Origin: Branchiostoma floridae | Lineage: Eukaryota > Chordata > Leptocardii > Amphioxiformes > Branchiostomatidae | Direction: 5' to 3' | DNA length: 64,000 nt | NCBI RefSeq assembly: GCF_000003815.2 | Contig: NW_023365702.1 | Location: 1 to 64,000 of the forward strand | Shown: piece after piece, positions 8,001 to 61,352 of the stretch | Position numbering within the stretch: the first letter of the stretch is position 1 | Layout: each line of letters opens with the position of its first letter | Made by a program: the position numbers and the translations under genes | The notes under the pieces: model-generated | Database searches by the model: none | What the model was told of the DNA's origin: nothing | The model's input: only the letters and a program-made list of their open reading frames with translations

Positions 8001-11000
8001 AGCATCTCCACACGTTTTTGAAGTAGAAAAGAAAAGCTTCAAACAGTAACCGTTTTCAACTGTTGCAAACTAGTTATTCATATTTTGACAAAACAATGAT
8101 GGCTTATGCAATGTACCCTGGGAGCCAGTCGGGATCGGGCAGCTTGGACAGTTTATTCGGTGGCCCAAGACAGTCAGGCGTACCCGATCTCCTATTGGTG
8201 CCCTGGGGAGTTTAAGCCCGATTAGGTCCATCTGCCCAATGTAGCTATAACTCCTTCGGCCTTAAACTCACCGGACCTCTAATGAGAGATCGGCGGGCTG
8301 ACTACCTTGGGTCCCCGAGCAAAACTCGCTAGCTACCCGGTCCTGTGTGGCTCCCAGGGTAATGCAATGGGACTTTGTTATTGTCAGTCCTGTGGAAGAC
8401 AACGGTCCATTCAATTCATTATTGTGTGGATGAGAGGTTCTATACAGATGACATTTGCCACCATGTTAACTCTAGCTCTCATTAAAGATGCTCACTAGGG
8501 CTGGGTACCAGTATGGTGTACCGGTACAAACCCGGGTTTTCTTATTGTACCGGTCCGGAAAAAAACGGACCTGAAAAAATTCGGTGAACCGGATGTTGGA
8601 CCTATCAGAAAATAAACAGATTATATGATCAGGCATTCACACGTCTTGGGGCTTACCGGTCGAAGAAAATAACAAGAACAAGAGTTTATAGTCATTTCAA
8701 CAAAGTTTTGCGGTCAATCGTACAGAGGCAGTTAGTTTTGCAGGATTTTAGAACGCCAGTGGCAGTCATGACGTCAAATAAAGCACAAAATATACTTTCT
8801 TGTAGCAAAATGTACCATTGTTTTGAGTATCGTCCATTCATATGGTTTCACATACTGAATCAGGTCCAGGTTCAGGTCCGGACATGATCCTGATCCTCTG
8901 GACCTGAACCGGACCTGGACCTGAATTTTCTGTACCGGTATCCAGCCCTAATGCTCACCTTTGGTAAAGTAGAGCCTGCCGTTTCCAGACCAGATGAAGG
9001 CGGTGTCAACGTAACTAGGAACGCCTCCCCACTGGCTCATGGGGCGGGGGTAGCCAGTGTCCAGCTGGGTGTTGGTGTAACGCCAGTATTGGTCACCCTG
9101 GAGAAGTGCATTGGAATCAGTCAATTGGTTGAAAGGATTAAAACTCAAGTAATGTTCATTCTCCTACGCCCGGTCCCCAACGGCATTAGCCTATTGGGGC
9201 CCTGTGCTTGGATGCCTACCATCGGTTACTGTGATTGTTAGTGTAACGCCAGTACTGGTCACCCTGGAGAAGTGAATTGGGATCAGTCAGTTGGTGACCT
9301 GGAATCCAGTCTGCCGTGGATTGGCCAGGCTACCTTCGGGACAGTAGGGTCTTTCCACCGCCGGGGTAATCTTCCACACCCGGTAGGAGTTTTGCACGGT
9401 CGGAGTTAAATTTGCCATCCACGTGCCTATTAATTAACTCCCACTGGGCAAAGTCCTACCGGGAAAATGCTACCGGGTGTGAATGATGACACTAGCGGCT
9501 CAGAGCTGCACTGGCCCCGTAGAGAGCCTACAATAACTACGGTAGGCCGTGCCACAACTAGACTGGATTCCAGGTTAGTCAGTTAGTTGAAAGGATTAAA
9601 ACCCAGATAATCTTATGACTTGGAAGTCATGCACTGATATCGACAGAGATGGACATGTACAAACACAAACACAAACAGCCCTTTTCTTTTCGTTTTACTT
9701 GCTCAAAAAGAATCACATGTCTTCTTGAAATAGTTGAACTGTAATATCCAACACCAAAATTGGACTCACCCAAATTTTCGACTGCACAGCATCAGTCTTT
9801 GTCAAGGAATGAACAATCCACTGCTGTCGTGACGTCACGTTATGCAGATAGAACACGTGACTCAGTGAGCAGTGGATTATAGGTTGCAGGAAGTCTATGA
9901 CGCCCACCGTCTCTGTTTTAGGTGAGTCCAATTTTGGTGTTGGATATTACAGTTCAACTATTTCAAGAATGACTTCTACCAACACAGATGAACTTTCGAG
10001 TTAAAAATCACATGTATTCACCTTATAGAAGTAGAGTTTCTTGTTGGCTCTGTAGTACATAGCGGCATCCAGGTCCCCGGGAAGATCGCCCCACACGTCA
10101 GAAATAAGCTTAGGATAGCCGCCAACCATCCCGGCGGAGTTCAGCTCCCAGAAGTAGTTCCCTGTCGGCAAGAAGTTTGTTTATTGATTCGCACAACAAA
10201 GTGAGATCGTCATGTCACAACTTCTTTTTATCGCTTCTGTACGTAAAGTTGTCTCACAACCTGGAACCTGTGAAATCAGCGACAACATCCCGCCGCCGTA
10301 CCTTCCTCCCGGCCACAACAAAACTCTGGAACTCACTGCCTCAGCACATAGTGACACTTATACCCCCCTCATATCAGGCGAAAATCGATCGGACGACGAG
10401 TCTGCGAGCTCTACATTACGAGGAAGCATGACCCTGGCGGGAAGGGGGGAACGTAATTTAGAGCTCGCAGGCTTGTCGTCCAATCGATTTTCGCCTAATG
10501 TGAGAGGGGCATTAGGGACAGACAGAAATTTAAGACTAGCATCAATAACCACTTCAGCGACCTACGTCAGCGCCCTTAAAGGGGCATTCCACTCCACACA
10601 GGAGTGTTATTCTCTGATAGATATTAATTTTAGGAAGTGATAACTGCATACGACTTCACATTATACGATCAAGTACCCAGTTGCTCCACGTGCCTCAAAA
10701 GCATCCAGTCTTCTACTAAACTCCCCAAGTGCCCTCTAAAAAAAGGCTCTAATTGAATTAATCCTATGGCTGAATACAATGCAAAACTTTTTAGGTACGG
10801 TTACAAAATTAATTTCAGGTTCGCTAAGAAATCTCATCTTGTTCTTGTATTATTTGCTATCTTATGAGCAATTTGCCTTCTCGGTGTGCTTAGCGAACCT
10901 CATTTATTCCGAAAATATGCACAATAAACAAGGTGTCTATGCGTATAGGGAATGCATGGGAAGGGTCTGCATAGGTTTAGTGAGTGTCACATTGTTTTAA

Positions 11001-14000
11001 AAAACACACATCGCGCAATTCATCCCAAGGTGAATGCCACAAAATTCGGCTGATTATGTATTCATTGACACATTATCTATTGGAAAACAAGACTCCCATC
11101 TGGAGTGGAATGGCCCTTTAAGGACAGCTAATGCTGAAGATTGGAGTCTGCATAGATAAAAAAAAGGTGCTTACCTCTGAAGGCGTACGTCTTGCCGTCC
11201 TCTGTGATGGTGATGGCGTCCAGCTCTCCGCTGCAGGTGTCCGGGACGTCAGGGTTTGGGTTCGGGTTGGGAGTCATGCCGGCGTCGGGTCGCGGAGTGG
11301 GGCGCTCCATATCTGGCATACCTATGATACAGAAAGCGCATTTTTGTCTTTTCTATTTGCTTTTGGACAGACAAGGACAATATGGCACTGCACTCAAGTT
11401 TGAAACTTATATTAACAGTGCCACTTACAGGGTAAGGGTACAGGCAGAAGGTAAAGGTAGTCTTTTACCTCCCCGACCGAAGTCAGGTACCCATTTTTAC
11501 AACTGGGTGAAGTGAGGAAGGTCGTGTTAAGTGCCTTTCCCAAGGGCATAACGTCGGGGGCACGGCGGGGATCGAACTCAGGACCTATAGATTCCGAGAC
11601 GAACGCTCTACCAGTTACGCCACGCCCGACGCCACGGAAGCGCTCAGAAAGCGCATTCAGTATAATCTTTCAAATAGCGCTCCAGCACTACGGCATCTCT
11701 GGTAATCTTTTGTCTTTGCTTCAAGCCTTCCTTACACAAAGGACCCAGGCAGTTGTCCTTGATGGGGAGTCCTCGAAACACACAAAGGTTTTGTCGGGAG
11801 TGCCCCAAGGAACTGTTCTGGGACCCCTCTTGTTCCTACTTTACATAAATGATTTACCTGATATTGTTGGGTCCAACGTGCGTTTGTTTGCAGACGATTG
11901 CCTGCTTTACCGTATTATTGAACACAAAAGTGACGTACAAGGCTTACAAGCTGACCTTGACGCACTGACCCATTGGCAAAACCAATGGCAGATGTCCTTT
12001 AATCCATCTAAGTGCCACACACTTCATATAACTCACAAACGTAAACCAATCATTTCTCAATATGTTCTTTGTTCAGAAAACCTTACAAGTGTCAAAACCC
12101 ACCCATATCTTGGTGTCCAGCTATCTCATGACATGAAGTGGGACACACATATAAAGTATGCAACTGGTAAAGCGAATCGAATACTGGCGGTCATTCGCCG
12201 CAACTTACAGCACTGCCCACCACGGGTCAAATCAACATGCTATAAGGCGTTGGTGCGCCCGCACCTGGAGTACAGTGCAGCAGTGTGGGACCCCCATACT
12301 ATCAGTGGGGCCCAGGCACTAGAAAGAGTGCAGCGTAGAGCGGCAAGAGTGACCGTCAACGATTATCGCAGAACCAGTAGTGTATCAGAAATGCTCAAGA
12401 GCCTACAATGGCCACTCCTCGCTGACAGAAGGAGAGACGCACGTCTAATCACTCTTTACAAAATTGTGAATGGTATCATTAACATACCTTCAGCCCAGTA
12501 CCTTAAACCAGCCCAACGCAGAACCAGAGGAAGTCACATGTTTAAGTATCAGTTAATAACAGCTAAAAGAGACTGTTTTAAGTTTTCTTTTTTCCCTCGC
12601 ACGGTTGTCGAGTGGAACGGACTGCCGGGGCACACTGCCCAGGCCCCGTCAGTCGAGGCCTTTAAGGCCGGTTTGGCTGCCTTGCCCTAATCCGCAAGCC
12701 CCCCCCCCCCCTCAGTGACACCCCAGCGGGGTTTTTGGAGGGTACAGAAGATGAAGATGAAGAAGCGCTGTGCACGTAGTCGTTTTTGTGAAGATCGTCC
12801 TGGATGATAATGATACTAGCGACGGAACAAGGAATACAAGAGAATAAGCGGTCCGAATATCAACTTCCAATTTGTCAAGAAAAAAAGTGAAGAGCAAATC
12901 CTTAAATTTGAAGTAGCCTTATCGAAACTATGCATTCATGGTACAGTAGAGGAACGATTGTTGGATACAGTAGAATCCGCTTAATTTTACGATCTATTTG
13001 CCAGTGAATTTCGTGCAATTATCCGGTTGGTACAATAATGCGAAGTTATCTAGCTGGGCCGCACAGGTTTGGGATTTTTTAATTCCGTGCAGTTAACAGA
13101 AGTGTGCATTAATACGTTGTGCAATTAACTGACTTCTACTGTATATGACTTAAATCTACTTAAATCTATCACAACTGAAAGCTGATCTCACCATACAGCA
13201 TCTGTATCCCTGCGATATCGTCAGAGTGGAGCACGAAGTCGGGCTCGTAGCCTCGGTAAAAGGGCGCCATGAGGGCGTCTGAGATTTCGGAGTGGGACAG
13301 GCCCAGGGAGTGGCCGAACTCGTGAGCTGCTACTTGTAACAGGTTCGTTCCTGTGGGGAAGATGTGATAATGCTGTGAGTGTAGTGCTCCCTTTTCAGAT
13401 GTAACAGCTTAGTTCCTGTGGGGAAGATGTGATAATGCTGTGAGTGTAGTGTTCCCTTAACGTTTTCAGATATACACAATGTTCCCTTTTCAGATATACA
13501 CAATAAAAAGAGCGGTCGTTCACACACAAGGAGAGCTAATTTCGAAAGCGATTGAATGCGTTTTCTTTGTCAGGTAGAGTTAACGCTAGTTCACCTTTAT
13601 TCAGAGGGTAACCAATATCCGTTGTATTTAACACCAGGGTATTTCGGGATATCAAGTTGACGGACGGACGTCTCAAACTGCATTATAATGAAAAAAATGT
13701 CCACCGTCCATCAACTTCATATCCCTAAACATCATGTTTTAGGTACAACGGATATAGGTTACCCTGCGCATAAAGGTAAACTAGCGTTACCAATTGCAAG
13801 TTCATGACATTGTCGTCCAAAAACGTGTCACTTTATGAACGTACATAAGCCTGCGAAGCTGTGCGTCTTTGTGTGACACCCAGTTCCCCAATAATGACCA
13901 ATAATGTTACAAGTGTCTCCAAACGATAAATGTGTCGGCACATCAGTGACATGTGTCAGTTTCAGTATTGTACCTAGAGATGTGTACCTAAACAAATTTT

Positions 14001-17000
14001 ATTTACAGGTACAGGTACACGGGTTATGGTACAGGTCCGGACCTGTACCTATACACGTTTGATAAAGTATATATAAGTTAAACATGTAGATAAGTGTTTT
14101 TTTTAGTGATAAGTCATCTTTGTATGGGGAATCACATATTTGAATCGCAATGCAATTTCTTTGCAAGTTTCAACTGCAAGATTATTACAATTGTCATCGT
14201 GATTTGATATGTACTTATCTGTGGCCTTAAAGATGGTGCCTGCAAGTGCTTTAGTGTGTTTAGGTACAGGTACAAGTACACAGATGTTTAGGTCTGGACC
14301 TGTACCTAAACAATTTTTCAGGTACGGTACAGGTATGGGTATTTAGGTACACAGCCCTAAAATTTGTACCTTGTACCTGAGGAAGTTTTGACTGTCCATT
14401 GTTCCGACTCGTCGAAGTGGGTGTCGCCCCCGAACTGAGGGAAGAACGCATGCGCCAGCGTGCCCCCCGGCCCGTCGAAAGGCGCGCCGTCCCCGTGTTC
14501 GATGGGCGCAAACTTGATGACGATGTCGGCTTGGGTGGGCGGGCTCACTCTGGTGAACGTCAGGGGGGTTTGTTCCTGCCACAGCTTAACATGAAATAAA
14601 ACGTTTATTAATTAAAGTCGAGTAGATAGCAGCGTCTACAGAAATCACAAATACCTGCCCCGTAAATTAAAAAGGTCTTCATGGGAGGTCCCGACAACGA
14701 TTTACGATAAATTTAGAAGAACCCACTAACTGAAAACTCGCTATCACGGCAAACTCCCTTCCACAGCAAACTCCCTTCCTCGAAAAACTCCCTTTCCCGG
14801 CACAAGAGAACCTAGCCAACGTTGAAAATCGCGCGCACACCCACACACACACAAAAAATAGCCCGTCCGAAGACTGCAAGGGAGTCTACATCTGCAGTAC
14901 CTGAAAGGCTCGCGTGATGGCCTCATCGACGTCGCCCTTTCCCAGGTCAGGCGTGTAGTCGGCATCAGCGAGACTCCAAGTCAGGTCCCGCTTGGGCCAG
15001 GTGCTTCCCTGCAGCGCGTACCGGCGGCGCCGGCGGGCCATCCCGCGGGAGTGGGTGCCTATCATGTCCGGCACACCGCACCGGGGCATCGCCATCATGG
15101 CCATGGTTTCATTGTCAAGCTTACCTACATGGGCAAAATCACTCGTCAGCTTTATGCATTCGTTTTAAGCTAAGGGCACAATCCGCCGTACGTGCAAATA
15201 CGTGCTGTCTACGTGCCAAAACGTGGGCAATCTATTGGGATCCGTAAGTGGTAAGTACCGCCTCCGTACGAACTCGTAGGGAGTCCGACGGATTTTTAAG
15301 CACGAAGACACGCCTTAGAACTTTACGTGCAGGCAAAACTTGTGCCATCGGGCTGCGGGTTGTGCCCTTAGCTTAACAGACAGCCACTGTACATGTACTT
15401 TCGAGGAAAGCGTGATACCGAATTTATAAACATAGATGAAACATTCTTGGTCAAACAACAAGAGACAAGTTTTTACCTGTCACTGTAATGTTTGCGAATT
15501 CCTGGAACATAGAGATGGCTTCCCTCATGGCGTCCTCGCTCTGCAGCTGGCCCGTCTGCATGGACGGCGGATCCATGTAGCCGAAATTCATCAGGTAGTT
15601 CTGAGGAACAGAGAACGTTACAAGATGTCAATCAAATCTACAATCTTAACCATAGAATAAACTCACAAGAATGCACGTTAGTAAGTGTAACCGTGGTGTT
15701 CAAGGACTGCTTAACGAAAGACAACCAAACGGCTTGGGTTCGATCCCGGCTGGCGGCATGTTGTTTCTTTCTGTTCTACTCGCCCCTCTGGTTGTTTCAG
15801 TACAAACTCCAACTCGTGCAGAAGCGTTTATTGACAATGAAAGCTTGTGACAAGTTGTGTGAAAAAATGCCCCACCCCTTTGCCCAAACTTTCGCCTGTG
15901 AACCAGCGGATATTATAAACATCCTCTTTCGGTCTTCGCCAGGATTGGGGATGCATGCAAATCGAAAACTAAGCCACGTTTGGGATTGTTTTCTCACCGC
16001 AAAAGCGCCACCTACATCGGCTACATATAGCGGTGAGAAGCAGAACTCCAGTTAGAAGCTCTGACGAAGGTGTCTCAGAGACACCGAAACGTAAGCCAAG
16101 TAAGTAACCACTGGTTGTGTAAAAAGAATTCTCCTTCATCTTATATTCTACCAACCTGACGAAACTATTTTCGGAAAAGGTAACTGGTTGGACAACTCAG
16201 TGCCAGGCGCAGAACGTGCCAGACTACGCAACCTACAAAGGAATGATATCAAGGTGTAATACTGTAACAGTGCTGTTCAAGGACTGCTAAACCGAAGACG
16301 CCTAATTAAACGACTTAAGCCTTTTGGCCGAACGGTTTGCACGTTCGATTTGTTATCTGCCGACCCGGTTTCGATCCCGGATGGCGTCATGTTGTTTCTT
16401 TTTGTTCTTACTCGCCACTCCGGATTTCTACTATACGACGAACCCTGGATTATGGATGTCTTTTTTTCTCTCGCCCTCTGGTGGCAAACATTGTTGACGG
16501 TTCGCTTTCTGGTGGGTGGGGTGGTGGTTTCACGTGTAATTTGGCTAATTCGTCTCAAGGGTTTCGTATTCAAAAATGGTTCCCACAACCTTTTAACCCA
16601 CAGCCCCTGTCATGGTAAAATCCAAAGGTTGGTTAATTTGCTGTTTCCTTTTTGTTGATTCTTTGATTGCTTTTATTTGCATGAGAAAGGTGGGCGTCTC
16701 CGACTTAGTCAATTTATTCGTTGGTTGGTACACCCCTACCCCTAGGGAGACCATTCAGTTGAATGGTGGGCTTCTCCGACTTAGTCAATTTATTCGCTAC
16801 TATTTCATTTCAGTTTGCTTTATAATTCGTTCCTTTTCGTTTCTTTTCGTTCCCTTTAGTTCTCTTTAGTTCCCTTTCGTTCCTTTTCGCACTTTCGGTA
16901 CTTTCTTTTTCGTTCCTTTTCGTTTCTTTTCGCCCTTTCGGTAGACCCCACTCTAGTGCAGTCTCCGTCAAGCTGTACAGTAAAAACAAAAACTTCGGGG

Positions 17001-17850
17001 CTCCTTGCGTATATCCACCTGTGCCATGGCCCGGTTATAATGCTCGCACGTCATGACTTTAAACTACGCGCAATGTACTTAAACCACAATGTATGGTGCT
17101 GAAGAATTCCACAAATTTGGCAGAACAATGGTTGACATAATATTATTTATAGTGCTCTTCCCTTGTCTTTATGTGTGACTGGGAAATCCTTATCTACCCA
17201 TCTCCTCACTCTTGATGCCCGAGTGAGCTTTTAGCGACCTTAGGTCAAAACAGAGTCGGGTTTAGCAGTACCAAAAACACACAATTGAAGTTAGAAAAGA
17301 AACGAAAAAAGTCTGGTCTGTTAGTATGACTGGTACTATCTGTTTAAAACGGAAGTATCGGGCGAACATGATAGAAATGGAACAAATAGAAGAGAACACC
17401 AGCCAGAGAGTATAGCCGGGTAGGGAATAGTGCGCGGCCTGCGAAATCTGTGAGGGGTCGCGTACTGTTCCCTAGTCGGCTATACTTCTCTGGCTGGCTT
17501 AATCTCCTATTTGTTCCATTTCTACAATTTTTCCAGCGACCCGGAGTCTGGTAGAGACTAAAAACCTAGCAGAGATCAGTAATATCACTGCTCTGGGACC
17601 ACTTACACTGTGTCCTGTCAGGAAATGCCGTAGTTTATGGACGAAAAGTCGCGCATTCTGACTGGAAAACTGATCCTAGTGGGGGAACGTACACTATATA
17701 GTCACATACAAATGTAGTTCTGTATTAAAGTATCATCAAATACCGGCAGAAACATGTTGAGCTTACCATTCCCCCCTGCATGGTCATGTCGGCCAGGGCG
17801 CAGCCGAACACGGCCGACACCAGCACGGCCAGAAACGTGCAGGAGTTCAT
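5091..17850 (-). CDS. Matrix metalloproteinase with furin site, hemopexin domain and GPI-type tail (MMP-A)
   Basis: Secreted zinc endopeptidase predicted to be tethered to the cell surface. Ten exons: 17850-17767, 15600-15477, 15124-14901, 14584-14377, 13350-13192, 11321-11175, 10161-10022, 9097-8959, 7607-7468, 5315-5091. All have AG/GT borders and compatible phases, giving 1590 nt (529 aa). Order: signal peptide ([20 protein letters not shown]), propeptide with cysteine switch PRCGVPD, furin-type RRRRR then YALQG, catalytic domain with [11 protein letters not shown] and Met-turn ALMAP, Pro/Asn-rich hinge, and four hemopexin blades bounded by the Cys of DTCSGEL and WFGC. The end is hydrophobic ([17 protein letters not shown]), as in GPI-anchored MMP17/25; GPI anchoring is inference. 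Introns are full of MITEs and LINEs. AATAAA lies at 4883-4888. The paralogue MMP-B is 42 kb to the right. Confidence 0.93.
5302..5815 (-). repeat. 52-bp minisatellite, 10 units, repeating the last-exon splice acceptor of MMP-A
   Basis: Units begin at 5311, 5363, 5415, 5466, 5518, 5569, 5621, 5673, 5725 and 5777 (spacing 51-52). On the minus strand each reads TTTTCCGTACTACAG then GGCAGCCAGTACTGGCG, that is, a pyrimidine-rich acceptor plus the first codons of exon 10 (GSQYWR). The unit nearest the gene is the real exon 10 border. The MMP-B array has 16 units. Confidence 0.92.
5816..5945 (-). mobile_element. 3' end of a LINE (minus strand)
   Basis: Minus-strand CAATAAACGCATTCATTCAT, a short ATTC-repeat tail typical of CR1-like LINE 3' ends, followed upstream by about 110 bases of 3' UTR-like sequence. 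The same fragment lies next to the MMP-B array at 48306-48380, so it predates the duplication. Confidence 0.5.
6850..7058. mobile_element. Long-hairpin MITE (ctagttcacctttat family)
   Basis: Ends TAGTTCACCTTTATCCG and CGGATAAAGGTGAACTA are inverted copies; inner arms GGTAACC / GGTTACC and tccgtt / aacgga extend the hairpin. In intron 9 of MMP-A. Family members are at 13586-13784 and 49646-49845. The rest of 5946-7460 holds AT-rich intronic sequence absent from MMP-B, in which I see nothing coding. Confidence 0.65.
7640..7968 (-). mobile_element. Retroposed 3' fragment in MMP-A intron 8, antisense-free orientation unknown source
   Basis: Insertion present in MMP-A and absent from MMP-B, flanked by the 6-bp duplication AATTGT (7634-7639 and 7969-7974). 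The minus strand carries an open reading frame ending at 7744 (residues [16 protein letters not shown], then FWKSYCQVH) followed by a 3' UTR-like stretch and AATAAA near 7650. It resembles the 3' end of a retrotransposed gene or LINE. I do not recognise the protein. Confidence 0.5.
8114..8361. mobile_element. hAT-type MITE (TACCCTGGGAGCCA ends)
   Basis: Inverted ends TACCCTGGGAGCCA and TGGCTCCCAGGGTA, flanked by the 8-bp duplication ATGCAATG (8106-8113 and 8362-8369). MMP-B has the single-copy empty site near 49175. An 8-bp duplication points to the hAT superfamily. 248 bp, no coding. Confidence 0.85.
8496..8950. mobile_element. hAT-type MITE inserted on the exon 8 splice donor of MMP-A
   Basis: Ends TAGGGCTGGGTACC and GGTATCCAGCCCTA are inverted, flanked by ATGCTCAC at 8488-8495 and 8951-8958. 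The duplicated 8-mer, read on the minus strand as GTGAGCAT, is the exon 8 donor itself. MMP-B keeps the empty site at about 50044-50051. Related elements lie in intron 1 of each zinc-finger gene. Confidence 0.88.
9241..9296 (-). repeat. Partial duplicate of MMP-A exon 8 acceptor region
   Basis: Repeats the junction at 9078-9125: taacgccagtactggtcacc then ctggagaagtg and a gatcagtcagttggt tail. It carries a second copy of the acceptor (CTCCAG) and the first exon codons, upstream of the true exon 8. Not seen in MMP-B. Confidence 0.7.
9297..9575. mobile_element. TIR element shared by both MMP copies (A copy)
   Basis: Inverted ends ACCTGGAATCCAGTCT and AGACTGGATTCCAGGT, about 279 bp, flanked by imperfect copies of agtcagttggt. 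The MMP-B copy at 50223-50501 has an 11-base perfect flank repeat. Present before the gene duplication. Confidence 0.7.
9721..10004. mobile_element. Foldback element with perfect 49-bp arms
   Basis: Arms at 9722-9770 and 9921-9969 are exact reverse complements (ttcttgaaatagttgaac... on the left). The insertion including a 35-base extension is flanked by AATCACATGT (9711-9720 and 10005-10014). MMP-B has the empty site at about 50631-50640. It lies 7 bases from the exon 7 donor region in intron 7. Confidence 0.82.
10182..10356 (+). mobile_element. LINE fragment, reverse transcriptase C terminus
   Basis: Plus-strand reading includes [20 protein letters not shown], the conserved tail seen after the RT domain in CR1/L2-like LINEs. 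The same fragment is at 54223-54396 beside MMP-B exon 7, so it predates the duplication. It lies in intron 6, directly upstream of exon 7. Confidence 0.65.
10366..10509. mobile_element. Palindromic MITE, internally deleted (A copy)
   Basis: Long near-perfect inverted arms: left contains gaaaatcgatcggacgacga and gtctgcgagctct, right contains their complements. The MMP-B copy (55300-55481) has a longer centre including gcatgaccctg on both arms. It lies in intron 6. Confidence 0.8.
10580..11117. mobile_element. piggyBac-like MITE (TTAA target duplication)
   Basis: Ends AGGGGCATTCCACTCCA and TGGAGTGGAATGGCCCT match as inverted repeats at 16 of 17 positions, flanked by TTAA (10576-10579 and 11118-11121). 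MMP-B has a single TTAA in the empty site (cgcccttaaggac, about 55546). TTAA-specific insertion is the hallmark of piggyBac-type elements. 538 bp, no transposase. Confidence 0.85.
11343..11644 (-). mobile_element. tRNA-derived SINE in MMP-A intron 5
   Basis: Minus-strand head (from 11632) has an A box (GTGGCGTAACTGG) and B box (GAGTTCGATCC) of a tRNA promoter, then a body with cccttgggaaaggcactta and tcacttcacccagttgt. The insertion is flanked by CAGAAAGCGCATT at 11330-11342 and 11645-11657. Not a working tRNA gene: the head runs straight into the SINE body. Confidence 0.8.
11682..12763 (+). mobile_element. 5'-truncated LINE (CR1/L2-like), only in MMP-A
   Basis: Plus-strand element in intron 5, flanked by AGCGCT (11676-11681, 12764-12769). 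MMP-B has the uninterrupted site near 56200. The 3' end is a short-repeat tail (agaagatgaagatgaag), as in L2/CR1 clades. It retains most of the reverse transcriptase. Confidence 0.9.
11683..12690 (+). pseudogene. Reverse transcriptase, N-terminally truncated
   Basis: Begins inside the RT palm ([17 protein letters not shown]) and is open to its natural stop. It shows [20 protein letters not shown], the catalytic box [10 protein letters not shown] (FADD), the later conserved CHTLHI and YLGVQL, and the C-terminal [12 protein letters not shown]. The endonuclease and RT fingers are missing through 5' truncation, so it cannot mobilise itself. An open frame upstream, back to 11512, is SINE sequence and not part of the protein. 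The absence of stops over 335 codons suggests a recent insertion. Confidence 0.85.
13586..13784. mobile_element. Long-hairpin MITE (ctagttcacctttat family), MMP-A intron 4
   Basis: Ends CTAGTTCACCTTTAT and ATAAAGGTAAACTAG form a hairpin; flanked by CG on both sides. MMP-B has the empty site (agttaacgttacc) near 57382. Same family as 6850-7058. Confidence 0.75.
13975..14359. mobile_element. hAT-like element next to exon 4 donor of MMP-A
   Basis: Inverted ends TAGAGATGTGTACCTAAA and TTTAGGTACACAGCCCTA (approximate), with ggtacaggtac-rich subterminal repeats. Absent from MMP-B (about 57813). Its right end lies about 17 bases from the exon 4 donor. Confidence 0.65.
15165..15376. mobile_element. 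MITE in MMP-A intron 2 with TTAAGCTAAGGGCACAA ends
   Basis: The 17-bp ends are perfect inverted repeats including TTAA, compatible with a TTAA target duplication. 212 bp. The element at the corresponding place in MMP-B (59163-59498) is in the opposite orientation and longer. Confidence 0.8.
15966..16176. mobile_element. Penelope-like-element debris, MMP-A intron 1
   Basis: Segment absent from MMP-B (about 60325). It contains the hammerhead-like core at 16056-16099 and, downstream, ggttgtgtaaaaagaattct and ctaccaacctgacgaaact, a layout repeated at 25071-25190 and 41640-41670. Assignment to Penelope-like elements rests on their known habit of carrying hammerhead ribozymes. An SINE-like piece with the box gggttcgatccc occupies 15684-15802. 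Confidence 0.4.
16056..16099 (+). ncRNA. Hammerhead-ribozyme-like core
   Basis: CTGACGA (16061-16067), a 7-bp stem GGTGTCT/AGACACC with a 3-base loop, then GAAAC and GTA. This matches the CUGANGA..stem II..GAAA order of a type I hammerhead. Stem I is not convincing, so activity is doubtful. Confidence 0.4.
16250..16440 (+). mobile_element. tRNA-like SINE head, MMP-A intron 1
   Basis: A box-like TTGGCCGAACGG and B box-like GGTTTCGATCCCGG at tRNA spacing, followed by gcatgttgtttctttttgtt. A homologous copy is in MMP-B at 60400-60560. Degenerate and followed by a SINE body, so not a tRNA gene. Confidence 0.5.
17372..17522. mobile_element. Palindromic MITE, MMP-A intron 1
   Basis: Arms of about 60 bases: AGAAATGGAACAAATAG, CCAGCCAGAGAGTATAGCC and GGGAATAGT on the left, their complements on the right. 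Absent from the matching part of MMP-B (about 61285). Confidence 0.75.
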
Positions 17851-47230: not shown

Positions 47231-47460
47231 TCTACTCAAAAGAGCAGGAGTTTCGCTACTAACACTGACAGAAGTGACGGTAACACTACGGTAGGCACCA
47301 CGTTGACCCCGCTGTTGACGCCCTGCAGGTCACATGGCGGGAGTTTGGGCGTGGTCGGTTTGGGCGTGGTCGGCTCCATCTCCATCATACACCCGAACCA
47401 GTACTGCGCGGTGGACTTCGGGTAACCGGGGTCCACACTGAAGGTCGTGTCGTTGAAACG

Positions 47461-48305
47461 CCAATACTGGCTGCCCTGTAGTACGGAAAATATCCAATGT
47501 TATATGATAACGTTCACACCAGTACTGGCTGCCCTGTAGTACGGAAAATATCCAATGTTATATGATAACGCCAGTACTGGCTGCCCTGTATGTTCGGAAA
47601 ATATCCAATGTTATATGATAACGTTCACACCAGTACTGGCTGCCCTGTAGTACGGAAAATATCCAATGTTATATGATAACGCCAGTACTGGCTGCCCTGT
47701 AGTTCGGAAAATATCCAATGTTAGATGATAACGCCAGTACTGGCAGCCCTGTAGTTCGGAAAATATCCAATGTTAGATGATAACGCCAGTACTGGCAGCC
47801 CTGTAGTATGGAAAATATCCAATGTTATATGATAACGCCAGTACTGGCTGCCCTGTAGTTCGGAAAATATCCAATGTTATATGATAACGTTCACACCAGT
47901 ACTGGCAGCCCTGTAGTACGGAAATATCCAATGTTATATGATAACGCCAGCAATGGCTGCCCTGTAGTACGGAAAATATCCAATATTATATGATAACGCC
48001 AGTAATGGCTGCCCTGTAGTATGGAAAATATCCAATGTTATATGATAACGCAATGTACTGGCTGCCCTGTAGTACGAAAAATATCCCATGTTATATGATA
48101 ACGCAATGTACTGGCTGCCCTGTAGTACGGAAAATATCCAATGTTATATGATAACGCAATGTACTGGCTGCCCTGTAGTACGGAAAATATCCAATGTTAT
48201 ATGATAACGCCAGTACTGGCTGCCCTGTAGCACGGAAAATATCCAATGTTATATGATAACGCCAGTACTGACTGCCCTGTAGTACGGAATATATCCAATG
48301 TTATA
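47461..48305 (-). repeat. 52-bp splice-acceptor minisatellite, 16 units (MMP-B)
   Basis: Same unit as 5302-5815, starting at 47471, 47529, 47581, 47640, 47692, 47744, 47796, 47848, 47906, 47957, 48009, 48062, 48115, 48168, 48220 and 48272. Three units are 58-59 bp because of an added ttcaca. Confidence 0.92.
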
Positions 48306-48492: not shown

Positions 48493-48889
48493 ACATGTGC
48501 AAGTTAAGTTAGTTTTTTTTTTTTTTTTTTACACAGTACCAACATTAGGTCACTGTCGATTCTCACGGAAGAACAATACAAAATGTGGTATTCTTTAACT
48601 TGATACTCTGGCCTTAAAAAAACAGAACGGTTGTCTAACCTTGAAGAAGTATGTCCTCCCGTTGAGCCACTGCATTACCGTGTCCACGCCATCCGCGGGC
48701 ACACCGTTCCACACCGACAGGTCACGTGGGTAGCCCCTGTCCACCCCCGTCCCGGCCCTGTACCGGTAGTATTGGTCATCTGCGCAAAGAGGAAATAAAT
48801 GTTTGAATTGTCTTGTAAATTCACCTTAGCAACCCTGAGCATCTCCACACGTTTTTCATAAGAAGTAGAAAAGACAAGCTTCAAGCATT

Positions 48890-49299: not shown

Positions 49300-49557
49300 C
49301 TGATGGCGCATAGGGCGGTGCCCATCTCCGTTTCATTAGCCCATGGCCACACAACTTTGTGCAATCACTACAGCAGGGGGCTAGTCCACTGGTACTGGCG
49401 TGTGTTCAACTTCCATACTCTTTCCCGAATGCTGAGTGCTAAGCAGAGAAAACAGCATGTACCATTTTTTAAGTCTTTTAAGACTCGGCCGGGGATCGAA
49501 CTCACGACCTACCGAATGCAAGGCGAACACTCTACCCACTTGGCCATTGCACCGGTC
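49300..49557 (-). mobile_element. tRNA-derived SINE in MMP-B intron 8
   Basis: Minus-strand head GGTGCAATGGCCAAGTGGG (A box) and GTGAGTTCGATCCCCGGCC (B box), body with gtacatgctgttttctctgc and the end gggcaccgccctatgc. Same family at 56405-56665 and, headless, at 57660-57780. Absent from MMP-A. Confidence 0.8.
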
Positions 49558-49597
49558 AAAAATGTAAACTCTATAGCTCTCATTAAAGAATGCTCAC

Positions 49598-49648
49598 CTG
49601 CCGTTTCCAGACCAGATGTAGGCGGTGTCGACGTCGCTAGGAACGCCT
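49598..49648 (-). repeat. Partial duplicate of MMP-B exon 8 with a donor
   Basis: Copies the 3' part of exon 8 (GGCGTTCCTAGCGACGTCGA ... AACGGCAG) but lacks the last 17 bases before GTGAGC, so a donor GGCAG|GTGAGC is still formed. It is fused on the right to a hairpin MITE. Confidence 0.75.
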
Positions 49649-49845
49649 TTATTCGTGGGTTAACCTATATCCGATGTTTATAGAAAAAAGGTATTTCGTG
49701 ATAGCAAGTCGACATACGGTGGTTTCAAACCGTATATTGAATATCTTGCAATTTGAAACCACCATTGCATCAGTTGACTTGATATCACTAATCAAATTTT
49801 TTTTTAACAACGGATATAGGTTACCCCACGAATAAAGGTGAACTA
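49646..49845. mobile_element. Long-hairpin MITE (ctagttcacctttat family), left end truncated
   Basis: Right end AATAAAGGTGAACTAG; the left end starts inside the element at cctttattcgtggg, directly fused to the exon 8 fragment. Confidence 0.65.
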
Positions 49846-49871
49846 GCGTTAAACTCTAGCTATCATTAAAG

Positions 49872-50027
49872 ATGAGGGACGGCCCTAGCCGAAGCTAGGT
49901 ACTCATTTTCACCTGAGTAAAGTGAGGAAAGCCGTGTAAAGTGCCTTTCCCAAGGGCACAGGATCGGTGACACGGCAGCTGGATTCGAACCCGCAACCTC
50001 TCGGTCACGGGCCGAACGCGGTCCCAC
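49872..50027 (-). mobile_element. tRNA-derived SINE in MMP-B intron 8
   Basis: Minus-strand B box GCGGGTTCGAATCC, body cccttgggaaaggcacttta and tcactttactcaggtg, related to the SINE at 11343-11644. Flanked by copies of tagctctcattaaagatg (about 49857 and 50029). Confidence 0.78.
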
Positions 50028-50222
50028 TAGCTCTCATTAAAGATGCTCACCTTTGGTAAAGTAGAGCCTGCCGTTTCCAGACCAGATGTAGGCGCTGTCG
50101 ATGTCGCTAGGAACGCCTCCCCACTGGCTCATGGGGCGGGGGTAGCCGGTGTCCAGCTGGGTGTTGGTGTAACGCCAGTACTGGTCACCCTGGAGAAGTG
50201 CATTGGAATCAGTCAGTTGGTA

Positions 50223-50501
50223 ACCTGGAATCCAGTCTGCCGTGGATTGGCCAGGCTACCTTCGGGACAGGAAGGTCTTTCCACCGCCGGGATAATCTTT
50301 CACACCCGGTAGGAGTTTTGCACGGTGGGAGTTAAATTTGCCATCCACGGGCCTATTAATTAACTCCCACTGGGCAAAGTCCTACCGGGAAAATGCTACC
50401 GGGTGTGAATGATGACACCAGCGGATCAGAGCTGCACTGGCCCCGTAGAGAGCCTACACTAACTACGGTAGGCCGTGCCACAACTAGACTGGATTCCAGG
50501 T
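50223..50501. mobile_element. TIR element shared by both MMP copies (B copy)
   Basis: Ends ACCTGGAATCCAGTCT and AGACTGGATTCCAGGT, flanked by AGTCAGTTGGT on both sides. Counterpart of 9297-9575. Confidence 0.72.
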
Positions 50502-50781
50502 TAGTCAGTTGGTTGAAAAGACTAAAACTCAAATAATGTTATGATTTGAAAGTCATGCACTGATATCGACGGAGATGGACATGTACAAACACAAACAGCC
50601 CTTTTCTTTTCATCTTACTTGCTCAAAAAGAATCACATGTATTCACCTTATAGAAGTAGAGTTTCTTGTTGGCTCTGTAGTACATGGCGGCATCCAGGTC
50701 CCCGGGAAGCTCGCCCCACACGTCAGAAATAAGCTTAGGATAGCCGGCAACCATCCCGGTGGAGCTCAGCTCCCAGAAGTA

Positions 50782-53700
50782 TAGTATGGTTTATTTCTTC
50801 TTCAACACTTTACACGGTACAGAATGGCAGGGCCATGGCCCTGAATTGCACTGTCGTGTTACATTTATTAAAATCGAAGACATTTATCAAAAACGATGTT
50901 CGTACATCAGCGAATATTGCACGTTAGCGAATATTGCACATAGTATTTACATATATTGCACACAGTTGCTTAACAGTTGCTTGACAGTGACAAATTTGGC
51001 TAAAAATACAACAAATTTGATTTCGAAGGTGATGGGTAGCTAGTCAAAGATCGCTTATAAAACAGATTGTCACATCTAGAGCGCAGATTCAGGTATTTAC
51101 ATGTTCAGCATGCGCACCATGTAGGGTATAGCACTCGATCTGTATCTTTCCGTTCTACAATGAACAGTGTCGAGTTTGTGTGATGAACGAGTCATCCTGC
51201 CACTGATATCCACACGTGAGAGTGGTAGTAGGTGTCTGTACAGCTTCGACTGTTCAAGTGATTTCGCGAAGTTAACAGTTAATTGTTCACGACGTGACTT
51301 GAGTGTAGGTAGGCCCAGCCGAATACATGCTTTGGAGTAGGATGTGTAGTTGGTGCCCAAGATGATTCGAAGTGCTCGGCGTTGGACGTTCTCGATTTTG
51401 TTGCTGAGAGTTGCGGGTAGTCCGGAGTGCCAAACGGGCGACGCATACTCCAGAATCGGGCGGATATAACAGGTGTAAACCGTAACTAGATCATCAGCAG
51501 GAACGCGGAAGTGCTTCAGTTTGATGAGTAAGTACAGACGTTGGCATGACTTCGTGCACATGGAGTCCACGTGCGTATTCCATTTCAAGTCTTCTTGGAG
51601 GTGAAGACCCAAAATCTTCATGACTTTCACATGTTGAAGTTCAATGTTACTTATCATGAGTGGTGGTGGCACGAACGATGTCTTACTAAACTGGATGTGA
51701 AGGACGTTGCATTTGCGAGGGTGTAACACCATGTCGCTTTCACGGGACCAGTTCTCCAGATCCGAAAGGTCTTCTTGGAGCTTTGTTGACACTACAGTCG
51801 GATTTCTGACTTCTAGGAAGTTGAGGTCGTCAACAAACTTCCACCGCCTAGATGCAGCTAGGGTTGCGGCGCTGTTGATGTAGACTATAAATATCAATGG
51901 TCCGAGGAGAGTACCTTGAGGTAGGCCACAGGTAACGGTGATGTTCTCGGAAAGCGCACCGTGGTACCGAACTGCCTGTTGTCTGTTTCTGAGAAAGTCG
52001 ACTATCCAGCATGTAAGCGAGGGTCTCAAGCCTAGGTCGATCAGACGTTGGATGGCAACGTTGTGGTTCACGCGATCAAACGCTTTACTAAAATCTGTTG
52101 ATACTAAGGAGCACAGTATACCTGTCTTGTCAGTAGCCTTGAAGATCTCGTTGGTAAGGTCCAAAAGACAGTGTGTTGTTGACCTGCCTTTTAAACACCC
52201 AAATTGCTTCGGGTCGAGTTGGGGAAGGATATCAGATAGAGCCCACTGTGCAATGAAACTCTCAGCGACTTTGCTCAACAAAGATGTCAAGGAAATAGGA
52301 CGGAGTTCACCGATGGTCGGAGGCTTGGTCTTTGGGATGGGGACGACAACAGCTGATTTCCACTCTTCCGGTACCATGCCTTGGCTGAGCGATGTGTTAA
52401 GAATGTCTGAGAATGGGCGGCTCAGTTCATATGCAAATTCCTTAATGATTTTACCTGAGATCAGATCAGGTCCGGCTGCTTTTCGAGTTTTGACACTCTG
52501 TAGCTTCCGATAAACCTCCCAAGGTTGCACAACCGGCGGCGGGAGTGATGGCAGGTAGGAAGGAAGCGTTGATGGATCTAGTGGTGGCAGAGAGGTAGTC
52601 ACAGAGGATAACGAGCTGTTAATTGTATTTGCTATCCCCACAGTGTCACTGGGCGCTACGTCACTGACGTGGATGACAGGTTCCGCTCTTCTTGAGTTAG
52701 CCATGGTTTTGATTTGTTGGTGCCAACGAGCAGGGTCTTCTTTCTTAAGGTCTTTAATCTTCTTGTTGAAGTATGTTGCTTTGGCGGTCGAGATCACACG
52801 CTGGACTTTGTTTCTAAGATGTTTCCAAGACTTAACGTCATCATTAGCAAAGGCCTGTTGACGTTGGTGAATCAGGGTTTTGATAGCAGGTGTGATCCAA
52901 GGTTTGTCCTGGTGGTGAAGGCGAATATGTTTTAATGGAAAGAAGTGATTTAGTTGGGCTTGAAGGGTGGTGTATAATGCCCGAGACTTGTCCACTGCAG
53001 TGCGGGCGGAGAACACTTCGATCCAATCGTGGGAAGTAATCCATTGCCCAAAACAGCGAAGATCGGAATCCCGTAAGGGTCGACATGAGCGTTTGGTCGT
53101 CTTGTTGACTGGCACACACGTTGGTTTGGGTTGTAATGTAACAACGCTATGATCGCTTGAAGCGAGGGGGTCGGAACACAGAGGGGGTGAGTAGTGAGGC
53201 TTAAGGTTGGTGATAAGAAAGTCGAGGGTGGCTTGGCCACGAGTGGGACGATTTACAAGCTGTCGTAAATTGTGGGTGGAGCACAGTTTACTGACGTCCA
53301 CGTGGTTGAAGTCACCACCAATGATAACTCCCACGTCAGGGTGGATCACACGGAGGGAGTCTACAGCATCCACCAGGTGCTCGATTAGTAGGTCGCTATG
53401 TGCACAGTTTGGAGGTGAGTACGCTGCACATACCGCCAGGCACGAGACACTACGCGGTAGTCGGTGGGGTCGGATTTTAACCCAGATACATTCAAGCTCA
53501 TTGGGGACCTGCATGTCAAGGGCACTAGCTGGGAGGTCGTCTCTGACGTAGATTGCCACTCCGCCACCCTGGCGTCCTTCCCTAGGCTGGGAAAAAGTTG
53601 AGTAGCCCTGAATATCTGTCATCTCGGCCGGGGATGTTGTTTTGAACCAAGTCTCGGTTACCAGAGCTATTCCAGTTTCTGAAGAAGACAGCCGAAGTTC

Positions 53701-54195
53701 AAACTCGTCAAGTTTGTTGCATAGGGACCGCGCATTGCACAGAAGCAAGGGAGGTAAGGGGTGGGTTTTACTCTTGGTTGGTGTAGGTTGATGGTCGGTT
53801 TGTTTAGCATCCACACCAGACAGGGGAATCCGCGTCAAGATACGGGCGGTGCGTGGTTGACATGGAAACGTGGGTGCGTCGTTGTTTGTAAACACGGTGT
53901 GATGGAATTCAATGAAGGCTTCACCTGGTAATTTGCGTACGAGTTGGTTCGATGGGAGCACATCAACTTCCTCAGATGTACACAGGGAGTTGCCAACTGA
54001 TTTGCATGTGTATGCATCACCAAGAGACGGGTTAAATATGGACGACTGGCATCTAGTAATCAAGGGTCTGTTACCGATAATGGTGGGAATCTTGCGTGCG
54101 TGTCGTTTCCCTGCTTTAGATCCTCTTGCTCTGCTCCTGTATCTCCAGACCCCCAAACGCAGTAGATGGTCCTTTAGATCAGGGCAGGGCGGCAG
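50782..54195 (-). mobile_element. Near-intact CR1-like LINE inside MMP-B exon 7
   Basis: 3414 bp flanked by GTA (50779-50781, 54196-54198), placed by comparison with the uninterrupted exon 7 of MMP-A (gaagtagttccctg, 10151-10164). One long frame (EN plus RT), about 310 bases of 3' UTR and an AATAAA (50790-50795). Tail ends ..ataaaccatacta. The lack of disabling mutations suggests a young insertion. A separate ORF1 is not seen. Confidence 0.93.
51097..54195 (-). CDS. LINE polyprotein: AP endonuclease and reverse transcriptase
   Basis: About 1,030 residues, no stops or frameshifts, beginning LPPCPDLKDHLLRLG at the insertion junction and ending VRMLNM. Roughly residues 160-385 are the AP-type endonuclease (CNARSLCNKLDEFE, ALVTETWF, GGGVAIYV, IIGGDFNHVD, ASSDHSVV). 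Roughly 560-830 are the reverse transcriptase, with GPDLISGKIIKEF, STDFSKAFDRVNHN, CGLPQGTLLGPLIFIVYIN and the catalytic FVDDLNFLE. The C-terminal RPILEYASPVWH follows. Both enzymes look complete, so it may be active or recently active. No start codon lies within the element's own 5' end; the open frame reads back through the three MMP exon 7 codons GNY into intron 6. Whether the natural start was lost by 5' truncation cannot be judged here. Clade assignment (CR1/L2 group) is from motif style only. Confidence 0.88.
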   Translation of the reverse strand: MPPCPDLKDHLLRLGVWRYRSRARGSKAGKRHARKIPTIIGNRPLITRCQSSIFNPSLGDAYTCKSVGNSLCTSEEVDVLPSNQLVRKLPGEAFIEFHHTVFTNNDAPTFPCQPRTARILTRIPLSGVDAKQTDHQPTPTKSKTHPLPPLLLCNARSLCNKLDEFELRLSSSETGIALVTETWFKTTSPAEMTDIQGYSTFSQPREGRQGGGVAIYVRDDLPASALDMQVPNELECIWVKIRPHRLPRSVSCLAVCAAYSPPNCAHSDLLIEHLVDAVDSLRVIHPDVGVIIGGDFNHVDVSKLCSTHNLRQLVNRPTRGQATLDFLITNLKPHYSPPLCSDPLASSDHSVVTLQPKPTCVPVNKTTKRSCRPLRDSDLRCFGQWITSHDWIEVFSARTAVDKSRALYTTLQAQLNHFFPLKHIRLHHQDKPWITPAIKTLIHQRQQAFANDDVKSWKHLRNKVQRVISTAKATYFNKKIKDLKKEDPARWHQQIKTMANSRRAEPVIHVSDVAPSDTVGIANTINSSLSSVTTSLPPLDPSTLPSYLPSLPPPVVQPWEVYRKLQSVKTRKAAGPDLISGKIIKEFAYELSRPFSDILNTSLSQGMVPEEWKSAVVVPIPKTKPPTIGELRPISLTSLLSKVAESFIAQWALSDILPQLDPKQFGCLKGRSTTHCLLDLTNEIFKATDKTGILCSLVSTDFSKAFDRVNHNVAIQRLIDLGLRPSLTCWIVDFLRNRQQAVRYHGALSENITVTCGLPQGTLLGPLIFIVYINSAATLAASRRWKFVDDLNFLEVRNPTVVSTKLQEDLSDLENWSRESDMVLHPRKCNVLHIQFSKTSFVPPPLMISNIELQHVKVMKILGLHLQEDLKWNTHVDSMCTKSCQRLYLLIKLKHFRVPADDLVTVYTCYIRPILEYASPVWHSGLPATLSNKIENVQRRALRIILGTNYTSYSKACIRLGLPTLKSRREQLTVNFAKSLEQSKLYRHLLPLSRVDISGRMTRSSHKLDTVHCRTERYRSSAIPYMVRMLNM

Positions 54196-54222
54196 GTAGT
54201 TCCCTGTCGGCAAGAAGTTTGT

Positions 54223-54396
54223 TTGTTTATTGATTCGCACAACAAAGTGAGATCGTCATGTCACAACTTCTTTTTATTGCTTCTGTACGTAAAGTTGTCT
54301 CACAACCTGGAACCTGTGAAATCAGCGACAACATCTCACCGCTGTACCTTCCTCCCGGCTACAACAAAACTCTGGGACTCACTGCCTCAGCACATA
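54223..54396 (+). mobile_element. LINE fragment (RT C terminus), cut by gap
   Basis: Duplicate of 10182-10356 ([18 protein letters not shown]). Continues into the unsequenced gap. Confidence 0.65.
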
Positions 54397-55023
54397 NNNN
54401 NNNNNNNNNNNNNNNNNNNNNNNNNNNNNNNNNNNNNNNNNNNNNNNNNNNNNNNNNNNNNNNNNNNNNNNNNNNNNNNNNNNNNNNNNNNNNNNNNNNN
54501 NNNNNNNNNNNNNNNNNNNNNNNNNNNNNNNNNNNNNNNNNNNNNNNNNNNNNNNNNNNNNNNNNNNNNNNNNNNNNNNNNNNNNNNNNNNNNNNNNNNN
54601 NNNNNNNNNNNNNNNNNNNNNNNNNNNNNNNNNNNNNNNNNNNNNNNNNNNNNNNNNNNNNNNNNNNNNNNNNNNNNNNNNNNNNNNNNNNNNNNNNNNN
54701 NNNNNNNNNNNNNNNNNNNNNNNNNNNNNNNNNNNNNNNNNNNNNNNNNNNNNNNNNNNNNNNNNNNNNNNNNNNNNNNNNNNNNNNNNNNNNNNNNNNN
54801 NNNNNNNNNNNNNNNNNNNNNNNNNNNNNNNNNNNNNNNNNNNNNNNNNNNNNNNNNNNNNNNNNNNNNNNNNNNNNNNNNNNNNNNNNNNNNNNNNNNN
54901 NNNNNNNNNNNNNNNNNNNNNNNNNNNNNNNNNNNNNNNNNNNNNNNNNNNNNNNNNNNNNNNNNNNNNNNNNNNNNNNNNNNNNNNNNNNNNNNNNNNN
55001 NNNNNNNNNNNNNNNNNNNNNNN
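54397..55023. other. Assembly gap (627 N)
   Basis: Run of N within MMP-B intron 6. Reading frames drawn across it are not evidence. Confidence 0.99.
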
Positions 55024-55220
55024 GTGTGTAATGAAAGCTGGAAATGATTAGATTTTGGGCCCTCTAGCGGCTCCCCTTGGTACTGCAGCGCAACGAAAGA
55101 TTTTGCTATCGTGGTGTTCTGAGCAAGCTAAGGTCACGATTTTTGAGTGTTAGATAGCTCGAGTGCTCAGGACTAAATGACATAAGGATGGCCCCCGCAG
55201 CATGTATTTTAGGCAAGGCA
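55024..55220. repeat. Fragment of the Helentron-like family
   Basis: Matches the interior of 3033-4095: gattagattttgggccctct, tggtactgcagcgcaac and gttagatagctcgagtgctc. The left part lies in the gap. Absent at this point in MMP-A. Confidence 0.65.
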
Positions 55221-55299
55221 TGCATACCTGTGTCAAAGACTTGAAAATAGTGTAGTAAAAAGGACACTACTACGGGTAGACTGGTGTTACTTATAGCCG

Positions 55300-55481: not shown

Positions 55482-55779
55482 TATTAGGGACAGACAGAAA
55501 TTTAAGACTAGCATCAATAACCACTTCAGCGACCTACGTCAGCGCCCTTAAGGACAGCTAATGCTGAAGATCGGAGTCTGCATAGATAAAAAAGGTAATT
55601 ACCTTTGAAGGCGTATGTCTTGCCGTCCTCTGTGATGGTGATGGCGTCCAGCTCTCCGCTGCAGGTGTCCGGGACGTCAGGGTTGGGGTTCGGGTTGGGA
55701 GTCATGCCGGCGTCGGGTCGCGGGGTGGGGCGCTCCATATCTGGCATACCTATGATACAGAAAGCGCATTGAGTATAAT

Positions 55780-56665: not shown

Positions 56666-56929
56666 GTACAGTAGAGGAACGATTATTGGATATATGACTT
56701 AAATCTACTTAAATCTATCACAACTGAAAGCTGATCTCACCATACAGCATCTGTATCCCTGCGATATCGTCAGAGTGGAGCACGAAGTCGGGCTCGTAGC
56801 CTCGGTAGAAGGGCGCCATGAGGGCGTCTGAGATTTCGGAGTGGGACAGGCCCAGGGAGTGGCCGAACTCGTGAGCTGCTACTTGTAACAGGTTAGTTCC
56901 TGTGGGGAAGATTAAATGCTGTTAGTGTA

Positions 56930-57780: not shown

Positions 57781-58555
57781 TCTTTCAGTGAAATGTGTCA
57801 GTTCCAGTATTGTACCTGAGGACGTTTTGACTGTCCATTGTTCCGACTCGTCGAAGTGGGCGTCGCCCCCGAACTGAGGGAAGAACGCATGCGCCAGCGT
57901 GCCCCCAGGCCCGTCGAAAGGCGCGCCGTCCCCGTGTTCGATGGGCGCGAACTTGATGGCGATGTCGGCTTGGTTGGGAGGGCTCACTCTGGTGAACGTC
58001 AGGGGGGTTTGTTCCTGCCACAGCTGAACAGGAAATAAAACGTTTATTAAAGTCGAGTAGATAGCAGCGTCTACAGAAATCACAAATACCTGCCCCGTAA
58101 TTTAAGAGGGTCTTCATGGGAGGTCCCGACAACGATTTACGTACGATGACTTTAGAAGAACCCACTTACTGAAAACTTGCTTCCTCGAAAAACTCCCTTT
58201 CCCGGCACAAGAGAACCTAGCCAACGTTGAAAATCGCGAATCAACGCCTCCCCCCCCCCCCTTTAAAAAAAACAGCCCCGTCCGCAAGGGAGTCTACATC
58301 TGCGGTACCTGAAAGGCTCGCGTGATGGCCTCGTCGACGTCGCCCTTTCCCAGGTCCGGCGTGTAGTCCGCATCAGCGAGGCTCCAGGTCAGGCTCCGCT
58401 TGGGCCAGGTGCTTCCCTGCAGCGCGTACCGGCGGCGGCGGCTGGCCATCCCGCGGGAGTGGGTGCCCATCATGTCCGGCACACCGCACCGGGGCATCGC
58501 CATCATGGCCATGGTTTCATTGTCAAGCTTACCTAAATGGGCAAAATCACTCGTC

Positions 58556-59498: not shown

Positions 59499-59739
59499 CA
59501 GCCAGTCGCTGTGTTTCTTCACGAGGAAAGCGTGATACCGAATTTATAAACATAGATGAAACATTCTTGGTCAAACAACAAGAGACAAGTTTTTACCTGT
59601 CACTGTAATGTTTGCGAATTCCTGGAACATAGAGATGGCTTCCCTCATGGCGTCCTCGCTCTGCAGCTGACCCGTCTGCATGGACGGTGGGTCCATGTAG
59701 CCGAAATTCATCAGGTAGTTCTGAGGAACAGAGAACGTT

Positions 59740-61350: not shown

Positions 61351-61352
61351 TT

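Follow-up and report, generated by a model that had tools for sequence, protein, structure and literature searches.

A sense-oriented LINE in hemopexin exon 7 of one of two near-identical lancelet metalloproteinase genes, and its predicted reverse transcriptase fusion frame

The first 64,000 nucleotides of Branchiostoma floridae contig NW_023365702.1 (hereafter the window) raise the question of whether a long interspersed nuclear element (LINE) has given a matrix metalloproteinase (MMP) gene a new coding end, or has simply broken it. The gene, which we call MMP-B, lies on the minus strand with exons 2-10 spanning 59720-47236, and its exon 7 contains the LINE. A sequence-only reading had proposed that splicing from exons 2-6 into this exon would capture MMP-B transcripts as a metalloproteinase-reverse transcriptase (RT) fusion. 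The explanation we favour, at a probability of roughly 0.8, is that a 5'-truncated LINE recently inserted, in sense orientation, into one member of a pair of near-identical metalloproteinase copies, within its hemopexin exon 7, leaving MMP-B truncated or null.

The insertion itself is established by an empty site in the second copy, MMP-A, whose uninterrupted exon 7 lies ~44 kb from the LINE-bearing exon. All nine MMP-B exons (exon 7 taken as two flanks) match their MMP-A partners at 91.7-98.7% identity, and the two copies share the same final 20 bases at the exon 7 acceptor. MMP-A exon 7 reads GGAACTACTTCTGGG where MMP-B has GGAACTAC, the LINE and then TACTTCTGGG. The exon opens with eight bases, GGAAC plus TAC (54203-54196), that run directly into the LINE from 54195, so the predicted point of entry, five bases past the acceptor plus a 3-base repeat, is indeed seen. 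At the other end, the LINE body stops at 50782 and is followed by TAC (50781-50779) and the remaining hemopexin exon down to 50647. TAC thus flanks the LINE twice, versus a single TAC in the empty site, but with only three bases to go by, the element itself may end in TAC. From the empty site it follows that the insertion is younger than the split between the two copies and that any target repeat is limited to 3 bases. When the end of exon 6 is joined to both exon 7 flanks, the resulting 53-residue peptide matches Hemopexin (Pfam, 2.3e-13). The earlier coordinates that we tested (50647, 54203, 55603, 51097 and 50790-50795) all proved right.

MMP-A is a matrix metalloproteinase with hemopexin repeats. 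It has a cysteine switch (PRCGVPD), the HExxHxxGxxH zinc site, a matrixin domain (Peptidase_M10, 5.3e-55) and four hemopexin repeats (Hemopexin in four stretches, 7.2e-49). The translation also shows RRRR and a hydrophobic C-terminus, which may point to a membrane-type, glycosylphosphatidylinositol (GPI)-anchored MMP.

The inserted element is an APE-type retrotransposon of the kind without long terminal repeats (non-LTR), with an apurinic-like endonuclease (Exo_endo_phos, 1.9e-6) and an RT (RVT_1, 5.6e-25) in one frame. The PDB sequences that matched it at E <=0.01 were RT proteins in eight of eight cases, including LINE-1 ORF2p and R2. It may be CR1/L2-like. Pfam gave no RNase H match in the LINE at E up to 1, and its 3' end has no poly(A) tail. 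The first Met after the junction comes 194 residues into the post-junction frame, and since two endonuclease motifs, CNARSL and TETWF, lie ahead of it, the remnant is unable to start a full endonuclease of its own. The element thus does not qualify as a full-length autonomous LINE, which would have its own promoter or start codon and complete open reading frames, and is probably 5'-truncated. Target-primed reverse transcription is the established route of LINE insertion, and this copy presumably arrived by it, in sense orientation, bringing its own AATAAA (50795-50790, as the sequence-only reading had it) but no start of its own. Relatives at the DNA level within the window amount to matches of <=20 bases, and at the protein level to four matches of 24-40% identity. 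None were found in a viral contig collection, which may omit records from the genome that the window belongs to, and no Rfam family reached its gathering score within the window. Other LINE pieces occur at 97-1631 (endonuclease, with a zinc knuckle that scores weakly, below the cut-off), at 11461-12690 (RT, in MMP-A intron 5), and, as RT-like stretches, at 33380-33916 and 56144-56019 (MMP-B intron 5).

Is the LINE in frame with the protease? MMP-B exons 2-6 add up to 862 nt, a single open frame of 287 codons with one base left over, which means that exon 6 ends in phase 1. Past exon 6 no stop occurs for another 1,035 codons (GNY and 1,032 LINE codons), until the stop codon at 51099-51097; counted from the exon 2 start, this makes 1,322 codons. 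The continuous frame claimed from exon 6 through exon 7 into the LINE is therefore borne out. A junction peptide of the fusion protein would span FKGNYLPPCPDLK, and the LINE would contribute 27 cysteines and 6 N-glycosylation sequons to the conceptual fusion. Reading the LINE in the remaining two phases meets a stop after 6 and 4 codons. One phase in three thus fits, as the sequence-only reading had cautioned, which makes the frame match real but not beyond chance; we rejected it as evidence of function in itself. In our literature searches, no title among the matches listed named a metalloproteinase-RT fusion, and PMC5802833 offered nothing on the subject.

The open frame could reflect either selection or youth, and divergence between the copies bears on which. 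MMP-A and MMP-B coding sequences differ at 47 of 1,503 nt and at 15 residues (NG86 dN 0.014, dS 0.097). The values are similar on either side of the LINE (dN 0.012 and dS 0.097 for exons 2-6; 0.016 and 0.097 for exons 7-10), so decay is not apparent in the exons beyond it. In non-coding sequence, 262 of 3,535 columns differ (7.4%), with 43 gap openings, counted over 23 colinear blocks of at least 60 columns from 48492 to 61296 that passed an offset filter; one of these blocks (49646-49852; 203 columns, 47 mismatches) looks like a non-orthologous repeat. Had the LINE drifted neutrally since the split, its 1,032 codons would be expected to hold 17-21 lesions (4-5 stops and 13-16 frameshifts). 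We observed none (P 5e-10 to 4e-8; for stops alone, P 0.007-0.02), which bounds its age at less than about 14-18% of that of the split, or 61-76% by stops alone. Given an intact frame on arrival, the LINE is therefore young. Youth explains the open frame without selection and needs nothing further.

The alternative is that selection on the fusion has kept the frame open, the RT having been domesticated by the protease gene. The 1,032-codon frame is intact and endonuclease and RT motifs are present, but youth accounts for the former, the insertion is absent from the near-identical MMP-A, and the secretory topology of the host would be ill-suited to a DNA-nicking enzyme. An RT in the secretory route would also have no evident use. 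We consider domestication extremely improbable, and give as little credence to its fullest form, in which MMP-B RNA with the LINE as last exon would encode a secreted, catalytically competent metalloproteinase with an in-frame endonuclease-RT, maintained by selection. Nothing we see supports a maintained fusion protein, the open frame being attributable to youth and the frame match to a one-in-three chance, and MMP-A still having exon 7 uninterrupted ~44 kb away.

What RNA might MMP-B make? If the gene is transcribed, the unchanged exon 7 acceptor could be used and the RNA could end at the LINE poly(A) signal, in which case the conceptual frame would run propeptide-protease-hinge-endonuclease-RT; alternatively, the oversized exon could be skipped or mis-spliced, with an early stop. 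Five outcomes can be drawn. First (a), exon 6 is spliced to exon 7 and the LINE serves as the last exon, yielding the fusion frame. Second (b), exon 7 is skipped, which brings a stop at codon 289, directly after the first codon beyond the new junction and 274 nt before the last one, so that decay is expected. Third (c), exons 7 and 8 are both skipped, which is in frame (413 codons) and keeps roughly the second hemopexin half and the C-terminal tail. Fourth (d), the whole 3,557-nt exon is spliced to exon 8, which leaves 729 nt between the LINE stop and the last junction. Fifth (e), a cryptic LINE donor is used, best 53925 (a 279-nt exon with a short product) or 52455, both out of frame with exon 8. 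Scored with a human weight table, no LINE donor exceeded 4, and these two exceeded 2.5 (3.5 and 3.2, respectively). The eight real MMP-B donors scored -0.1 to 7.1, so both sites fall within the real range and outcome (e) is not negligible. Outcomes (a), (b) and (e) would be expected to compete, and capture of MMP-B transcripts by the LINE, which the sequence-only reading had singled out, would be only one outcome among several. With the exception of (c), these products would generally lack the C-terminal tail and the greater part, if not the whole, of the hemopexin propeller.

A stronger version of outcome (a) is that the mRNA joining exons 2-6 to the LINE is the major stable product and is translated into a secreted protease-RT fusion, perhaps still cleaving, without hemopexin and anchor. 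The frame and the last 20 acceptor bases are intact and the LINE AATAAA lies near the end of the element; with both stop and poly(A) signal in the last exon, there would be no downstream junction to trigger decay. However, exonic L1 insertions often cause skipping: in the excerpted text of PMC6466679, six of 12 mouse germ-line L1 mutations are exonic, and three of those six involve exon skipping or loss. The LINE donor at 53925 beats four of the eight real MMP-B donors, so the LINE may be spliced out early. Moreover, no signal exon is visible in MMP-B, and a 1,032-residue endonuclease-RT would probably misfold in the secretory route. On balance we judge this version unlikely. The most likely net effect is that MMP-B is truncated or null while MMP-A stays uninterrupted, rather than that a new functional protein arises, and the fusion frame is so far conceptual.

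Several points weigh against the explanation that we favour. For the age argument to hold, the LINE must have arrived with its frame intact and evolved neutrally, and alignment gap openings must be a measure of indels; by stops alone the age bound is loose, at 61-76% of the age of the split. A maintained fusion would equally show an open frame. The fate of MMP-B RNA, in either direction, is predicted from the DNA, and the fusion RNA may be a real minor or major product. MMP-A and MMP-B may be two haplotypes rather than paralogues. Finally, the link from exon 6 to exon 7 crosses an assembly gap. The alternatives weighed here are compatible with each other and with the favoured explanation, and their probabilities need not sum to 1.

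The gap, which like the one upstream of exon 2 and like MMP-A itself went unmentioned in the sequence-only reading, comprises 627 N in intron 6, and because of it the exon 6/exon 7 junction rests on scaffolding. With exons 2-6 and exon 7 on its opposite sides, the exon 6-LINE linkage could in principle be an assembly artefact. Against this, MMP-A is colinear on either side of the gap, whose flanks correspond to 10350 and 10356, and dS to MMP-A is 0.097 on each side; the order of exons 6 and 7 is thus probably right. We regard an artefact as very unlikely.

A further alternative concerns haplotypes. Here, MMP-A and MMP-B would be two haplotypes of one locus put in tandem by the assembly, and the LINE would mark a heterozygous, possibly null, allele. 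When we compared 1-22000 with 43001-64000, the segment 2012-22000 matched 44542-64000 piecewise, in the same order and orientation. The 7.4% non-coding divergence is close to the 6-7% genome-wide polymorphism (single-nucleotide polymorphisms and indels) given for Branchiostoma floridae in the excerpted text of PMC2632668, which also describes haplotype-specific retroelement inserts and, in the first assembly, allelic swaps and misassemblies. On the other hand, MMP-A and the LINE-bearing exon are joined without an N gap (the only gaps are at 54397-55023 and 61527-61626), which mildly favours true tandem copies, and a coding dS of 0.097 seems to us rather high for alleles. We hold the haplotype arrangement to be possible, although doubtful. 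The colinear repeat, for its part, suggests a ~42 kb duplicated unit holding MMP and zinc-finger genes.

Comparable cases come from mouse and from lancelets. The exonic L1 mutations Reln-Orl, Ttn-mdm and Frem1-heb are described (PMC6466679, excerpt) as causing exon skipping, exon loss or chimeric transcripts (with a gene deletion in Ttn), and truncation. They share with MMP-B a sense LINE in an internal coding exon and a broken gene; in MMP-B, however, the LINE frame is open and in phase with the host, the element and the animal belong to other groups, and any chimeric transcript is a prediction. Intronic L1 interference, through exonization and cryptic polyadenylation (PMC3192792, excerpt), likewise involves a sense LINE that alters host splicing and 3' ends, whereas the MMP-B element sits in an exon and supplies coding sequence. 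Closer to home, the haplotype-specific RT/endonuclease insert in an amphioxus VCBP gene (PMC2632668, excerpt) is also a copy-specific retroelement indel in a clustered family with similar allelic divergence, although that one is intronic. Falsely fused lancelet gene models, among them an MMP-16 orthologue joined to a folate transporter (PMC4967905, excerpt), share a predicted novel domain combination, in one case with an MMP. In MMP-B, by contrast, the frame is truly continuous in the DNA and it is the use of it that is predicted.

The MMP-B LINE thus looks like an ordinary insertion, apparently young, that breaks an exon and leaves a fusion frame which is attractive but whose use is a prediction. 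As a clean insertion with an uninterrupted copy of the exon ~44 kb off, it could help to examine the splicing of an exon that carries a long in-phase LINE frame. The locus carries a warning as well, since a gene predictor could call a metalloproteinase-reverse transcriptase here, a kind of error already argued for lancelet models (excerpted text of PMC4967905). Should the fusion RNA be found, the locus would offer a natural example of a LINE serving as the coding terminal exon of a host gene.

Table 1. Coordinates of the two metalloproteinase copies, the LINE and associated features in the window
Feature	Position	Strand	Remarks
MMP-B exon 2	59597..59720	-	
MMP-B exon 3	58309..58532	-	cysteine switch PRCGVPD, RRRR furin-type site
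MMP-B exon 4	57816..58023	-	catalytic
MMP-B exon 5	56741..56899	-	zinc site
MMP-B exon 6	55603..55749	-	hinge, hemopexin start; ends in phase 1
Assembly gap, 627 N	54397..55023	.	intron 6; exon 6 on one side, LINE-bearing exon on the other
MMP-B exon 7 as found	50647..54203	-	3,557 nt: 8 hemopexin-exon bases, LINE, TAC and the other 132 bases
5' TAC repeat copy	54196..54198	-	compared with MMP-A empty site
LINE (non-LTR retrotransposon)	50782..54195	-	sense to MMP-B, probably 5'-truncated, without poly(A) tail; RVT_1 and Exo_endo_phos
LINE endonuclease-RT frame	51097..54195	-	1,032 codons and stop, continuous with the exon 6/7 frame
LINE AATAAA	50790..50795	-	further AATAAA at 50869
3' TAC repeat copy	50779..50781	-	compared with MMP-A empty site
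MMP-B exon 8	50051..50189	-	
MMP-B exon 9	48640..48779	-	
MMP-B exon 10	47236..47475	-	last hemopexin part, hydrophobic C-terminal tail resembling a GPI signal
Candidate MMP-A exon 1	17767..17850	-	signal peptide, phase-0 donor GTAAGC
MMP-A exons 2-10	5091..15600	-	one open frame, 501 codons
MMP-A exon 7	10022..10161	-	empty site, uninterrupted; by comparison, uninterrupted exon 7 length is 140 nt

The first exon of MMP-B had been noted as not visible, and this holds. A loose rule returned two exon 1 candidates upstream of MMP-A and none upstream of MMP-B. Under a stricter rule (signal peptide plus donor), 17850-17767 was the only hit on the whole minus strand, but the plus strand gave 34 rows, most of which fell in microsatellites or opposite zinc-finger arrays, so the stricter rule is weak by itself. 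Where MMP-A has its ~2.6 kb exon 1 stretch, MMP-B has only ~170 other bases and a 100-N gap (61527-61626), which lies upstream of exon 2 at about the place where MMP-A suggests exon 1. The exon is either in the gap or missing.

A 79-bp tandem array of seven copies (17851-18403) ends exactly at the ATG of the MMP-A candidate signal-peptide exon, and a 65-bp repeat (1.9 copies, 13335-13458) also duplicates the MMP-A exon 5 acceptor. Minisatellites of 52 bp at 47457-48308 (16 copies) and 5299-5813 (9.9 copies) repeat the exon 10 acceptor and the first exon 10 bases; of the 16 acceptor-like copies in MMP-B, none but the last leads to the native stop. Exon 8 has partial copies in introns of MMP-B (49646-49597, read by eye) and MMP-A (9263-9236). 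Five C2H2 zinc-finger array open reading frames are found on the minus strand (21759-22703, 26329-28068, 31436-32314, 37272-38429 and 42792-44054), and a further zinc-finger array at 63392-64000 runs off the window end.

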